NCBI GenBank assembly: GCA_025062325.1
Contig: JANXAL010000080.1
Coordinates: forward strand, 1 to 64,000
DNA: 64,000 bases
Source of the DNA: Roseiflexus sp.
Lineage (GTDB): Bacteria > Chloroflexota > Chloroflexia > Chloroflexales > Roseiflexaceae
Direction of reading: 5' to 3'
Shown: positions 2,972 to 7,882 of the stretch, piece by piece
Numbering within the stretch: position 1 is the stretch's first letter
How the letters are laid out: every line of letters begins with the position of its first letter
Made by a program: the position numbers and the translations under genes
Notes under the pieces: model-generated
Told to the model about the DNA's origin: nothing
Databases searched by the model: none
Seen by the model: only the letters and a program-made list of their open reading frames with translations

Positions 2972-3760
2972 ATGGATGGGCAGGATCGTCTATATCACAT
3001 CGGCTTTGGGCGCAGCGACCTGGGCGACAACCCGCCACGCATTGCGCTGTTGAGCGGCGACCCGGAACGCGCTCGTCTGATCGCGCAGACGGCGCTCCGC
3101 GATGCGCGTCTTCTTTCAGAGAACCGCGGGTTGCACAGTTATGTCGGAGCGCTGCCAAACGGTGCGCCAATCCTTTCGGCGACCAGCGGCATGGGTGCGC
3201 CATCGCTCAGCATTGTGGTGAATGAACTGGTGCAGGTCGGCATCCGCACCATCATCCGCGTCGGCACCAGCGGATCGATTCAACCGCATATTCCTCCTGG
3301 CAGCATCGTCATTTCCAGCGCTGCGTTATGTCGGCAGGGCGCCGCCGACGACATCGCGCCGCGCGAGTTCCCGGCCGCTGCCGATCCGTTCGTGACGGTC
3401 GCGCTCATCGAGGCCGCGCGCGCTGAGGGAATTCAACATTTCGTCGGCGTGACCGCATCCGTGGACACTTTTTACGAAGGGCAGGAGCGCACAGAGTCCG
3501 CCAATCCGCATCTGCTGCGCTGGCTGCGTGGCATTACTGAAGAATATCGCCGTTTGAACATCCTCAACTATGAGATGGAAGCCGGCACCCTATTCAAGAT
3601 GGGGCTGGTCTACGGTTTTGCAGCCGGATGCGTCTGCGGCGTCGTTGCACAGCGCACCGCCAGCGAAGCTATCGTCGCTGAGCGTAAGGCAGTTGCTGTC
3701 GAACGCGCAATTGCTGTGGCAGTGCGCGCTGCGATGAGATTGACCGATTCGGCGACCTGA
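2972..3760 (+). CDS. Uridine phosphorylase-type nucleoside phosphorylase
   Basis: A 262-residue member of the PNP/UDP phosphorylase family (type I), which splits a nucleoside with phosphate into free base and ribose-1-phosphate in the cytosol. Family marks are ALLSGDPERA near the N-terminus (phosphate and ribose contact), TSGMGAPS, the RVGTSGS loop, and NYEMEAGTLFKMG near residues 198-210, the E-M-E motif that binds ribose hydroxyls. Length is normal for the family. The gene follows the membrane protein after 27 bases, with AGGAGA before the ATG. Pyrimidine rather than purine specificity is the better guess, since the protein looks closest to uridine phosphorylases. Confidence 0.88.
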   Translation: MDGQDRLYHIGFGRSDLGDNPPRIALLSGDPERARLIAQTALRDARLLSENRGLHSYVGALPNGAPILSATSGMGAPSLSIVVNELVQVGIRTIIRVGTSGSIQPHIPPGSIVISSAALCRQGAADDIAPREFPAAADPFVTVALIEAARAEGIQHFVGVTASVDTFYEGQERTESANPHLLRWLRGITEEYRRLNILNYEMEAGTLFKMGLVYGFAAGCVCGVVAQRTASEAIVAERKAVAVERAIAVAVRAAMRLTDSAT

Positions 3761-4081
3761 CCCCTGGTCGGCAGATGACATAACATCGGCAATTGGCGAT
3801 CCGCAGCGCCCGCAAACCCTGCCTGCAGATGACAGGTGGTACAATAGAGGCGGGCGTTTCAGCGGGCGCTGTGTCCAGCCGCACATTTTTTCCGGGAAGT
3901 CGAGCAGCACAAGCGCCCGGGAGCGCTGAGAGAGCGGTAAGGTCACGCTTGCTGGATTCGTGCGCCTGCTGTTTGTCCTGGCGGGTCTGGCGCATTTCTC
4001 ATGAAGATCAGGTATTGCTGGGATGCTTTGGGCTGACGGTTTTTGAATCATTATTTCGCTATTCGCCTACCCGCCCGGCGA

Positions 4082-4260
4082 CTGATGAACGTTCACAAAA
4101 TAATCCGGCCTTCCCAGGCGCTGCGGGCTGAAGCTCTGACTGAGGTCATGAAAGCCCCTTCGGGGCTTCCACGTCCTGAGCGAGGGCTGTAGCCCGCAGC
4201 TCAGCGGGAGCGCGACCTGATGGCAGGTGGGCGCCAGATTTATTTCTTGACGTTCATTGG
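4082..4260. mobile_element. MITE-like element with terminal inverted repeats
   Basis: The ends are imperfect inverted repeats: ATGAACGTTCACAAAATAA on the left and its near complement TTTATTTCTTGACGTTCAT on the right. The interior is a large nested palindrome centred on AAGCCCCTTCGGGGCTT, with outer arms GCTGCGGGCT and AGCCCGCAGC. It has no coding capacity. A related interior segment occurs in reverse at 29290-29365. Non-autonomous transposon origin is inferred; no target duplication was certain. The rest of the 3761-4359 spacer shows no gene. Confidence 0.5.
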
Positions 4261-4359
4261 CGGGGTTGACGCCAAGGTGCAAATCCTTGCAATCAATTGC
4301 TGTACCGTGTAAAAGGGTAAGATCCAGGGCGTAGCAATCGGGCGGGAAGGAGGCCGCAC

Positions 4360-6024
4360 ATGGCAGACAAACAGAAGACCGTCGTCGCTGCCGCGCTTGG
4401 CGAGTGCGTGCATGTCGCCGGGGTGATGAACTTCCTGCGGCTGGCGGAGGAAGCTGGCTGGCGCACTATATTCCTCGGACCGGCCACGCCGATTGAGCGT
4501 GTGCTCGAGGCAGCGCGGCGCGAGCGGGCGGATCTGGTCGGCGTGTCGTACCGCCTGACGCCGGAAACCGGCGCCCATCTGCTGGGGCGCTTTGCCGAAG
4601 CGGCAGACGACCTCCACGCTGCGGGGGTGCGCTTTGCCTTCGCGGGAACGCCACCGTTGGCGAAGCAAGCCGCCGCGCTCGGATTCTTCGAGCAGGTGTT
4701 CGATGGCAGCGAACCTGCCGATCAGGTGCTGGCGTACCTGAAAGGACAGAACTTGGCAACCGCGACCGAGACGGATTTTCCGCAACGCACCGTTGACCGC
4801 ATTCGCTGGAAAGCGCCGTTTCCGCTGATCCGTCATCACTTCGGGTTGCCAACCATGCGGGCGACGATCGAGGGCATCGCAAAAATTGCCGATGCGCGCT
4901 GCCTCGACGTCATTTCGCTTGGCACCGATCAGGATGCGCAGGAGAACTTTTTCCACCCTGAACGACAGGACCCGGCGCGCACCGGCGCTGGCGGCGTGCC
5001 GGTGCGCAGCGCCGATGACTACCGCGCCCTCTACGCCGCCAGTCGGCGCGGCAACTACCCGCTCATGCGCACCTACTCCGGCACCGACGACTTCGTGCGC
5101 CTAGCGGAGTTGTATGTCGAGACGATCAACATCGCCTGGTGCGCCATCCCGCTCTTCTGGTTCAACCGCATGGACGGACGCGGACCGTGGGACCTGGAAG
5201 GGTCGATCCGCGAGCATCAGACCATTATGCGCTGGTATGGCGAGCGCGACATTCCGGTTGAACTCAACGAACCGCACCACTGGGGCATGCGCGACGCGCC
5301 CGATACGGTCTTCGTCGCCAGCGCCTACCTCTCGGCGTACAATGCCCGCGCGTTCGGCGTGCGCGACTACATTGCGCAACTGATGTTCAACAGCCCGCCT
5401 GGCCTGTCCGACGCGATGGATCTGGCGAAGATGCTGGCAGTGATTGAGATCATCGCGCCGCTGGCAGGACCGGAGTTCCGCATCTGGAAGCAGACCCGCA
5501 CCGGCCTGCTCAGTTACCCGGTCGATCCTGCCGCATCCCGGGCGCATCTGTCGGCAAGCATCTACCTGCAGATGGCGCTTCGCCCGCACATTGTCCATGT
5601 TGTTGGGCACACCGAAGCGCACCACGCCGCCACTGCCGACGATGTGATCGAAGCCTGCGGTATGGCGCGCCGCGCTATCGAAAACGCGCTGCGCGGTCAA
5701 CCCGATATGACCGCCGATCCGGCAGTGCGCGCACGGGCAGCGCAACTGGTCGAAGAGACGCACCTTCTTCTCGATGCTATCACGCAGCTTGCACCGCCTG
5801 GCGTGACCGACCCGCTGACCGACCCAGCGACCCTGACGAAAGCAGTCGCCGTTGGACTGCTTGACGCGCCGCAGCTGCGGAATAATCCCTTCGCACCAGG
5901 GCGCGTCGTGACCCGTTTCATTAACGGCATGTGCCTGGCAGTCGACGATCAGGGGCGCCCGCTTGATGAGAAAGAACGTATCCAACGGGCGCTGAATCGC
6001 GCGGTCTCATCAACATTTACTTGA
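4360..6024 (+). CDS. Cobalamin-binding-fold protein with mutase-like region
   Basis: A 554-residue protein whose first 130 residues look like the B12-binding Rossmann fold of coenzyme-B12 mutases. GECVHVAG (residues 14-21) keeps the H-x-x-G of the lower-ligand motif, although the usual Asp two before the His is Cys. The remaining 420 residues are rich in short alternating helices and strands and resemble the TIM-barrel part of glutamate- or aminomutase-type enzymes; this is a weak match. The B12 domain being N-terminal is unusual. AAGGAGG precedes the ATG. It forms a tight operon with the opine-dehydrogenase-like gene 20 bases downstream, which suggests amino-acid chemistry. The reaction is unknown. 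Confidence 0.72.
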   Translation: MADKQKTVVAAALGECVHVAGVMNFLRLAEEAGWRTIFLGPATPIERVLEAARRERADLVGVSYRLTPETGAHLLGRFAEAADDLHAAGVRFAFAGTPPLAKQAAALGFFEQVFDGSEPADQVLAYLKGQNLATATETDFPQRTVDRIRWKAPFPLIRHHFGLPTMRATIEGIAKIADARCLDVISLGTDQDAQENFFHPERQDPARTGAGGVPVRSADDYRALYAASRRGNYPLMRTYSGTDDFVRLAELYVETINIAWCAIPLFWFNRMDGRGPWDLEGSIREHQTIMRWYGERDIPVELNEPHHWGMRDAPDTVFVASAYLSAYNARAFGVRDYIAQLMFNSPPGLSDAMDLAKMLAVIEIIAPLAGPEFRIWKQTRTGLLSYPVDPAASRAHLSASIYLQMALRPHIVHVVGHTEAHHAATADDVIEACGMARRAIENALRGQPDMTADPAVRARAAQLVEETHLLLDAITQLAPPGVTDPLTDPATLTKAVAVGLLDAPQLRNNPFAPGRVVTRFINGMCLAVDDQGRPLDEKERIQRALNRAVSSTFT

Positions 6025-6044
6025 CATAAGAAGGAGAAACGATC

Positions 6045-7151
6045 ATGGCACCCTCAACCCGCTACACCGTCATTGGCGCCGGTAATGGCGGGAAGGCGAT
6101 GGCAGCGCATCTGGCCCTCATGGGTTTTGAGACGACGCTCTACAATCGCACTCCCGCTCACATCGAAGCCATCCGGCAGCGTCGCGGAATCGAACTGGAC
6201 TCGGGCGAAACGGGTCCACGCGGCTTTGGCCAGCTTGCGCTGGTAACATCGGACATGAAAGAGGCGCTCGACCGTTGCGACGTGGCAATGGTCGTCGTTC
6301 CCTCGACTGCGCATGCAGACGTGGCGCGCGCCATGGCGCCGTACCTGCGCGACGGACAGATTATCATTCTTCACCCCGGACGCACCTGTGGCGCTATTGA
6401 GGTCGCCAAAGTGCTGCGTGATGAACGTTGCCGGGCGGACGTCACGATTGCTGAAGCCGAAACGTTCATTTACGCCAGCCGCTCGGACGGACCAGCGCAG
6501 GCGCGTATTTTCCGCATTAAGGAAGCGGTTCCGCTGGCAGCGCTGCCAGCCTATCGCACCGGTGACGTGCTTGGCGTGATCCGCGATGCATTTCCGCAGT
6601 ACATTGACGGCGGCAATGTATTGCGCACCGGCCTCAACAACATGGGCGCGATCTTCCATCCGGCGTTGACCCTGCTGAATGCCGGACGCATCGAGTCGAC
6701 CCGCGGCGATTTTCAGTTCTACATTGATGGCGTCACGCCGTCGGTGGCGCGGGTGCTCGAAGTGCTCGACCGCGAGCGGGTCACTGTAGCTGCCGCCCTC
6801 GGCATTCGCGCCCGCACGGCGCAGGAGTGGCTGGCGCTGGCCTATAACGCCACCGGCGACTCACTCTACGAAGCTATCCAGAACCAGCCGGGGTACTACG
6901 GCATCAAAGCGCCGCCGACCCTCAACCATCGGTACATTTTTGAGGACGTACCGATGAGCCTGGTGCCGATCGCGGCGCTTGGTCAGCGGTATGGAGTCGC
7001 GGTCGCCGGGATCGACAGCATCATTCGCCTGGCATGCATTATTCACCGCACCGACTACTGGCGTCGCGGACGCACGCTCGACAAACTTGGCATTGCCAAT
7101 CTCAGCGTCAGCGAACTGACGCGCTACGTCGAGGAGGGAACGCTGGAGTAG
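6045..7151 (+). CDS. Opine (octopine/nopaline) dehydrogenase family protein
   Basis: A 368-residue NAD(P)-dependent enzyme of the octopine/nopaline dehydrogenase family, which reversibly joins an amino acid and a 2-keto acid, with reduction, to give an N-(carboxyalkyl) amino acid. The dinucleotide-binding loop is VIGAGNGGKAMA (residues 9-20). The C-terminal catalytic domain contains GLNNMGAIFHP, which carries the conserved N and H residues of the active site. An AGAAGGAGA ribosome site sits before ATG 6045, only 20 bases after the B12-domain gene, so the two are almost surely one transcript. The substrates cannot be read from sequence. Confidence 0.87.
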   Translation: MAPSTRYTVIGAGNGGKAMAAHLALMGFETTLYNRTPAHIEAIRQRRGIELDSGETGPRGFGQLALVTSDMKEALDRCDVAMVVVPSTAHADVARAMAPYLRDGQIIILHPGRTCGAIEVAKVLRDERCRADVTIAEAETFIYASRSDGPAQARIFRIKEAVPLAALPAYRTGDVLGVIRDAFPQYIDGGNVLRTGLNNMGAIFHPALTLLNAGRIESTRGDFQFYIDGVTPSVARVLEVLDRERVTVAAALGIRARTAQEWLALAYNATGDSLYEAIQNQPGYYGIKAPPTLNHRYIFEDVPMSLVPIAALGQRYGVAVAGIDSIIRLACIIHRTDYWRRGRTLDKLGIANLSVSELTRYVEEGTLE

Positions 7152-7480
7152 GTTAAGAGGCGAGAGGAGTGAGGCGAGGGGCGAGAGAGTTGAAGGTTGC
7201 AGGTAGCAGGTAGGGGCGCGCCCGCGGCAGGGATTCGCCCGCATTTGGGGGCATGCCATCGGCGATGGCGCGCCTGCGCCCGTGTGCCGCTAGACGAAGG
7301 AGCGTTGTACGGGGAAGGCATGAACAACAAGGAGAGCCGTGAAGGATGCAACGGGAAGTTAGTTCCTGGTTCTCGGTTCCCGAAGCACCTAACCCTTAAC
7401 TCTGAATGAACAGATCGTTACTTGCGAAGATCCTCCAGATTATGCTATTCTTGTTACGACTATCACAAGAAAGGTGACCG
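7152..7480. other. Intergenic spacer with low-complexity sequence and a weak promoter
   Basis: No convincing gene. The first part holds GAGGCGAGAGGAGTGAGG-like low-complexity sequence and a GC-rich stretch with GCGCGCC words. Near the end, TTGCGA (7422-7427), an 18-base spacer and TATTCT (7446-7451) form a plausible sigma-70 promoter for the gene at 7481. Confidence 0.45.
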
Positions 7481-7882
7481 ATGGAACTGACAACAATCAC
7501 CCAGGTTGCGCCAGGGCGATTGATTGGTCTCGCGCCAGACGGCGATCTTCGCCTGGTCTGGGATTATACGACTATTCGCATTCCGCTCTTCGATCTGCCG
7601 CATCTGGCAGCGCTCCTTGATCTGTGGCTGGTGGAGGAGGAGCCGCCGCAGTTGCGCCGCGGCTACTATCGGTTGACCCACAGCCCGGAGGGCGGATATC
7701 AGTTGTGGTTGCACACTGCCGGCCTATGGTTGAGTCGCCAGGATATTCACACGCTGACGACCCTGGTCAATGCGGTCGTTGAGGAGCTTGCCCGTCCGCT
7801 CTGCCGTCAACCGAGAGCGCCGTTTGGCCTGGGATATCGGAAGCTCATCGTCTCGCCGCGCAAAGGGCACAACCAGAATTAA
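7481..7882 (+). CDS. Small protein of unknown function
   Basis: A 133-residue, likely cytosolic protein with no recognised domain. It has a beta-rich first half with phrases such as RLIGLAPDGDLRLVWDYTTI and a helical segment TLTTLVNAVVEELARP near residue 100. AAAGGTG precedes the ATG, a weak promoter lies upstream and a strong hairpin (7938-7962) follows, so it looks like a single-gene transcript. Codon use fits the neighbouring genes. No function is proposed. Confidence 0.75.
   Translation: MELTTITQVAPGRLIGLAPDGDLRLVWDYTTIRIPLFDLPHLAALLDLWLVEEEPPQLRRGYYRLTHSPEGGYQLWLHTAGLWLSRQDIHTLTTLVNAVVEELARPLCRQPRAPFGLGYRKLIVSPRKGHNQN

Follow-up and report, generated by a model that had tools for sequence, protein, structure and literature searches.

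The window analyzed here is a stretch of 64,000 nucleotides from a Roseiflexus sp. genome (4.73 Mb, 96.8% complete), in which two adjacent genes encode a protein of 554 residues, termed the mutase below, and an opine dehydrogenase of 368 residues. The positions of both genes, and of the domains and residues discussed, are collected in Table 1. A promoter-like or terminator-like site was sought between the two genes and none was found, and an Rfam search of window positions 3500-7700 returned no match. The spacing is short in relatives too, the median being 23 bp in a set of 92 rows, some of them from duplicate loci. A preliminary description of this DNA had called co-transcription clear. It is inferred here from the short gap, in the window and in relatives.

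Table 1. Features of the mutase-dehydrogenase locus, in window coordinates.
Feature	Positions	Strand	Basis
Fused S-E mutase, 554 aa	4360..6024	+	Open reading frame (ORF); PF02310; AlphaFold model; best PDB match glutamate mutase E
B12-binding domain match	4378..4683	+	PF02310, E 1.1e-10 (whole-genome profile search)
CxHxxG motif (Cys16, His18, Gly21), a DxHxxG variant	4405..4422	+	77/77 invariant; also in fusion loci L106, L175, L176, L177
Glutamate-mutase-E-like barrel and C-terminal region, residues 137-543	4768..5988	+	VIA-align to 1cb7_B; hhalign to MutE
Intergenic gap, 20 bp	6025..6044	+	ORF limits
Opine dehydrogenase, 368 aa	6045..7151	+	PF02317 166.7 bits (Pfam); 1bg6 E 2.9e-78
Arg35 codon, NADPH indicator	6147..6149	+	80/80 linked; meaning from PMC10787698
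Arg113 codon (ArODH position 111), acidic-substrate determinant	6381..6383	+	80/80 linked, 0/18 unlinked; mutagenesis in PMC10787698
Gly201 codon (ArODH position 198), Arg113 partner	6645..6647	+	79/80 linked (one sequence ends earlier), 0/18 unlinked

In a Pfam search of the 554-residue protein, PF02310 was the sole match, covering residues 7-105 with 40.1 bits where the cut-off is 32.1 bits, and the barrel body matched no Pfam family. PF06368 gave no match at E <= 1; its cut-off was exceeded in four of 301 Chloroflexota genomes and in none of the 16 that carry the new mutase. Relatives were collected by a scan of one genome each for 84,980 species, and the best 80 of 232 were analyzed. The alignment used throughout comprises the window mutase and 76 of these 80 loci, 77 sequences in total; L026, L032, L033, and L099 were left out, one being partial, one containing a start-choice stop and two having long starts. 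An AlphaFold model based on the 77 sequences reached a mean predicted local distance difference test (pLDDT) score of 86.6 and a predicted template modelling (pTM) score of 0.88, with residues 191-211 below a pLDDT of 50. Foldseek ranked glutamate mutase E first (1cb7_B, E 1.1e-15), followed by ornithine and lysine aminomutases and then by coenzyme A (CoA) mutases. The same order was observed with VIA-align, in which 374 residues (137-543) aligned with 1cb7_B at Z 32.9 and a root-mean-square deviation of 3.5, compared with Z values of 30.3 for lysine 5,6-aminomutase, 27.2 for ornithine 4,5-aminomutase, and 21.2 for methylmalonyl-CoA mutase. By hhalign, the body matched three Chloroflexota proteins of the family of MutE, the glutamate mutase E subunit (E 1.9e-7, probability 94%), and among sequences of solved structures the mutase profile came closest to the S subunit of glutamate mutase (1be1_A, E 1.8e-5). 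The protein is thus a one-chain S-E fusion with S first, and its body falls in the glutamate-mutase branch and not among the CoA mutases.

The cobalamin motif reads G-E-C-V-H-V-A-G, in which His18 and Gly21 are retained and Cys16 occupies the place usually held by Asp in all 77 sequences. Among other B12 domains of the window genome, DxHxxG was found in L001 and L003, and ExHxxG in L004 and L006. Ten MutE residues, numbered as in C. cochlearium, were mapped to the mutase through the hhalign alignment, with spacings that all agree with the Chloroflexota MutE L118. In glutamate mutase, both carboxylates of glutamate are held by an arginine claw composed of Arg66, Arg100, and Arg149. The corresponding residues in the mutase are His160, Gln194, and Tyr239, each invariant in the 77 sequences, the correspondence of Arg66 with His160 being seen only in the global alignment. 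MutE Glu171 falls on a variable position, Lys326 on Val415, and Glu330 on the invariant Glu419, while the placement of Tyr177, Tyr181, and His291 by hhalign is unreliable. Judged from these alignments, the substrate pocket is rebuilt relative to that of glutamate mutase. In two of the three MutE-family proteins used, L120 (G089) and L121 (G178), Glu171 is also replaced, together with Arg149 in L120, so that pocket changes of this kind have precedent within PF06368; both proteins are probably other non-glutamate mutases. The preliminary description had proposed a B12-type fold at the N-terminus, a mutase-like body and an HVAG motif whose preceding Asp is replaced. All three are recovered here, the fold both by PF02310 and in the predicted structure, where it is joined to a barrel nearest glutamate mutase E. 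The N-terminal position, regarded in that description as unusual, is confirmed but not unheard of, since the B12 domain of IcmF is also N-terminal, in agreement with the IcmF rows of the structural alignment.

The neighbouring gene was correctly assigned to the opine dehydrogenase family in the preliminary description, and its closest solved relative is N-(1-D-carboxyethyl)-L-norvaline dehydrogenase (ArODH or CENDH, Arthrobacter 1C, 1bg6). Homology with ArODH extends over the whole length and includes the His-Asp dyad; ArODH differs in its preference for neutral amino acids and NADH and in having Ala111 and Asn198. The linked set consisted of 80 dehydrogenases, namely that of the window and those of 79 loci, since L080 is cut by a contig end; four are partial or of odd length. 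Within this set, His205 of the dyad is present in 79 of 79 sequences with a residue there, and Asp301 in 71 of 77, the other six having Glu. A report on hot-spring metagenomic opine dehydrogenases (mODHs; BK063522-BK063532) describes enzymes approximately 40% identical to ArODH that, with pyruvate, prefer L-aspartate, then L-glutamate, and mostly use NADPH (Telek 2024, PMC10787698). According to the same text, double mutants at Arg111 and Gly198 (ArODH numbers) swap the preference between L-Phe and L-Asp, and Arg35 is a sign of NADPH use (PMC10787698). The window dehydrogenase resembles the mODHs in its nearest template, ArODH, in the Arg111/Gly198 pair and in Arg35, a likeness drawn from the residues published there. 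With both marks present, NADPH use and a preference for L-Asp are expected, and the enzyme looks built for acidic amino acids of the L-Asp subclass. In 18 unlinked Chloroflexota dehydrogenases, chosen by hand from 18 of the 37 genomes with such an enzyme, neither the Arg nor the Gly was present, and position 198 was occupied by Asn in 17 cases and by Ala in the other. The pair does occur in a second dehydrogenase copy (48% identity) of the mutase genome G192, and in three of three dehydrogenases of the distant clade described below, from which Arg35 is absent. Across both dehydrogenase lineages, then, the substrate class expected of the partner goes together with linkage to the mutase.

Pairing of the two genes is highly consistent. 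Record titles of the 80 analyzed relatives name Chloroflexota groups, with Anaerolinea thermolimosa, Bellilinea caldifistulae, and Ornatilinea apprima among them. The dehydrogenase was present at 79 of the 80 loci; at the remaining one (L080) the contig stops 469 bp beyond the mutase. At 76 of the 79 paired loci the dehydrogenase lies downstream within 300 bp; gene order is reversed at L045 and L049, with the dehydrogenase upstream, and an asparagine-synthetase-like gene stands between the two at L030. Apart from the dehydrogenase, every gene family was confined to at most 20 of the 80 loci. The mutase was detected in 16 of 301 Chloroflexota genomes, 15 of the main clade and G184. A dehydrogenase homologue at 64-100% identity is present in every one of the 15 main-clade genomes, and the other 286 of the 301 (all but those 15) have none above 40%; at a threshold of 1e-20 any dehydrogenase match was found in 52 of the 301, of which 37 belong to the class at or below 40% identity. 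An intermediate locus, L151, encodes a mutase 60% identical to that of the window with the dehydrogenase adjacent. Plasmid sequences contained no match to the main-clade or the fusion-clade type of mutase, and viral contigs none to the fusion-clade type. Conservation of the neighbours in other genomes, which the preliminary description had named as a check, was therefore found at 79 of 79 testable loci, well beyond the genus, and the partnership is kept even in a distant clade with altered gene order. Because the pairing is so consistent across related genomes, the two enzymes probably act on consecutive steps of one pathway.

The distant clade is represented by G184, in which locus L106 encodes a protein of 1264 residues comprising a B12 domain, a mutase body and a MutL domain (270 bits), approximately 32% identical to the window mutase along the length of the latter. 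By its domain matches, this protein unites all three components of the glutamate mutase system, S, E, and L, in a single polypeptide. Its gene follows those for an RpiR-type regulator and an octopine dehydrogenase, and genes for a peptide-type ATP-binding cassette (ABC) transporter and an AAT-family protein come after it. In the family of G184, nine of 20 genomes matched. The RpiR regulator is present at all four fusion loci with complete upstream DNA (L106, L175, L176, and L177), and the dehydrogenase lies directly upstream at three of them; the upstream DNA of two further fusion loci, L180 and L181, is cut off, and L178 and L179 proved to be loci of the main-clade type with the usual dehydrogenase. 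An RpiR-like regulator (4456-5352) is also divergent from the main-clade mutase at L178 (G440), comparable to the RpiR genes of the fusion clade. Sequence identity between the fusion-clade dehydrogenases and that of the window is just 23-26%, and gene order is reversed. Of the 141 invariants of the mutase family, 93 are found unchanged in G184 and L151 alike, including Cys16, His18, Gly21, Arg158, His160, Gln194, Arg237, Tyr239, Asn269, Asp272, Arg274, Glu301, His306, Arg311, and Glu419.

Compared with known systems, the mutase shares its barrel fold, C-terminal region and cobalamin domain of the MutS kind with glutamate mutase (MutS and MutE, with MutL; C. cochlearium, 1cb7), as well as MutL, fused to the mutase in the distant clade. 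It differs in the union of S and E in one chain, in CxHxxG, in replacement of the claw and Glu171, and in its opine dehydrogenase partner. Ornithine 4,5-aminomutase and lysine 5,6-aminomutase also have the barrel fold (Z 27-30) and a B12 domain; unlike these, the mutase has its B12 domain at the N-terminus and has no invariant lysine for pyridoxal phosphate (PLP). IcmF and methylmalonyl-CoA mutase are likewise adenosylcobalamin mutases with a barrel, but Z is only 21 for the latter, and the window protein has no G-protein domain and stands nearer the glutamate-mutase branch. What is new is a mutase family within a known superfamily, found in several Chloroflexota groups and with a fixed partner enzyme.

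In the proposed pathway, the NADPH-linked dehydrogenase would form, or split, a secondary amine between an acidic L-amino acid of the aspartate or glutamate type and pyruvate, the forward reaction consuming the amino acid, pyruvate and NADPH and yielding an opine. The mutase would depend on adenosylcobalamin and, as a carbon-skeleton mutase of the glutamate-mutase branch, rearrange by radical chemistry either the amino acid before the dehydrogenase step or the opine after it, so that the two enzymes would catalyze neighbouring steps of one opine-type pathway. That a new adenosylcobalamin mutase family works in this manner beside an acidic-amino-acid opine dehydrogenase is considered reasonably probable. 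Within it, we infer that His18 takes part in cobalamin binding and that the chemistry is radical, as well as which substrate is used and how the steps are ordered and directed; the steps could equally run in the opposite order or serve catabolism. Aspartate-like compounds are suggested both by the aspartate preference of the partner subclass and by the recurrence of asparagine-synthetase genes. In the main clade, the asparagine-synthetase-like ligase neighbours and the NADPH mark suggest biosynthesis, of which the product may be amidated, and in the fusion clade the adjoining peptide-type ABC transporter and RpiR regulator suggest uptake and breakdown. A bolder proposal, to be treated as possible though doubtful, is that the mutase acts on the opine, the skeleton of N-(1-carboxyethyl)-L-aspartate or -glutamate, made by the dehydrogenase, being rearranged by a radical, for example to the N-(2-carboxyethyl) isomer, followed by amidation or coupling of the asparagine-synthetase type. 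We know of no case of radical B12 chemistry on opines; if this proposal were true, such chemistry and an unknown class of metabolite would exist in Chloroflexota. In the open-licence literature, no paper was found that links an enzyme of the glutamate-mutase type with opine metabolism or describes the proposed pathway. Few substrates of adenosylcobalamin mutases are known, and finding another usually leads into a pathway; here the rebuilt pocket and a partner of predictable substrate class make the search for the substrate small and testable. If correct, the pathway would also provide a natural role for acidic-amino-acid opine dehydrogenases, which the mODH report characterized as biocatalysts (PMC10787698).

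Several other explanations were weighed. The closest fold of the model, the acidic-substrate pair of the linked dehydrogenase and the retention of MutE Glu330 as Glu419 would all suit an ordinary one-chain glutamate mutase converting glutamate to 3-methylaspartate, which the dehydrogenase would then use, but the loss of the whole claw to three invariant residues, the variable Glu171 site and the failure of PF06368 to recognize the window mutase render this unlikely. The aminomutases, the next folds in the ranking, raise the question of an enzyme dependent on both PLP and B12, like ornithine 4,5- or lysine 5,6-aminomutase. The lack of any invariant lysine speaks against this, Lys6 being present in 73, Lys151 in 75, and Lys357 in 76 of the 77 sequences, with Arg in the remainder, and none of these three stands where the B12 domain of the aminomutases carries its PLP lysine; such an enzyme is considered extremely improbable. 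The B12 domain might also be a sensor or a remnant attached to a non-radical barrel enzyme, as the replaced motif Asp would allow, together with the Glu that two other B12 domains of the genome, both sensor-like, have at this position. This is judged highly improbable, however, given that neither His18 nor Gly21 ever varies, nor do many positions of the barrel, and that in the fusion clade the mutase is joined to MutL, which is associated with glutamate mutase as its reactivase.

That the two genes are merely co-regulated while serving separate pathways is very unlikely in the face of the 79 of 79 pairing, the exact co-occurrence, a partnership kept despite changed gene order, and the finding that dehydrogenases of another lineage, at 23-26% identity, carry the same two specificity residues. 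The fusion locus L176 favours it, where no dehydrogenase was found within the 19 kb examined, and this locus is also one of the points that weigh against a common pathway of mutase and opine dehydrogenase. Others concern the mutase itself: base-off/His-on binding of cobalamin is assumed, because the motif Asp is Cys in every member, and glutamate may not be the substrate of an enzyme without the arginine claw. Sequence alone gives no substrate. The comparison with unlinked dehydrogenases covers only 18 of 37 genomes. In addition, a dedicated reactivase of the main clade was not identified, since the MutL-like gene of the window genome belongs, in relatives, to a separate conserved operon.

Among other neighbours, an asparagine-synthetase-like gene starts at most 2.5 kb past the dehydrogenase at 17 of the 62 loci with at least 2 kb of sequence there; at other loci it is closer to a contig end, separates the pair (L030) or precedes it (L093). 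These proteins belong to the AsnB family, and the glutaminase cysteine is absent in seven of the 21 members of their cluster and in one G440 protein. Beta-lactam synthetases are also without this cysteine, and such an identity was considered and set aside for the proteins compared, because the scores for asparagine synthetase B are far higher and an SGEG-type or TGEG-type motif followed by DE is retained in those inspected. The scores against asparagine synthetase B, beta-lactam synthetase, and CarA were 151.6, 73.5, and 57.4 bits for L067 and 179.6, 59.5, and 72.2 bits for L030, both lacking the cysteine, and 291.7, 91.8, and 74.6 bits for L026, which has it. A DUF5698/DUF2179 membrane protein recurs at 18 mutase loci, and a D-Ala-D-Ala-ligase-like ATP-grasp gene lies directly 3' of the dehydrogenase at L034, L036, L067, and L084. 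Beside the window pair there is no asparagine-synthetase-like, DUF5698/DUF2179 or ATP-grasp gene. Window positions 7151-7481 contain no asparagine synthase B gene, and the whole genome only distant homologues, at most 52% identical per matched piece. At L026, a locus of a near relative, an asparagine synthase B gene (3208-4704) stands between the dehydrogenase and a homologue of the 133-residue ORF found at window positions 7481-7882.

A MutL-like gene above the cut-off was detected in 122 of the 301 genomes; 15 of the 16 mutase genomes have it, all but G283, and in four genomes it lies approximately 21-29 kb from the mutase. It was rejected as a dedicated main-clade reactivase, having its own conserved operon and occurring in many genomes without the mutase. 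In that operon, the MutL-like gene (here G000:C66:2599-4011) is accompanied by genes for zinc-ribbon-like and membrane proteins, an arrangement conserved at L155, L158, L159, L162, L163, and L164.

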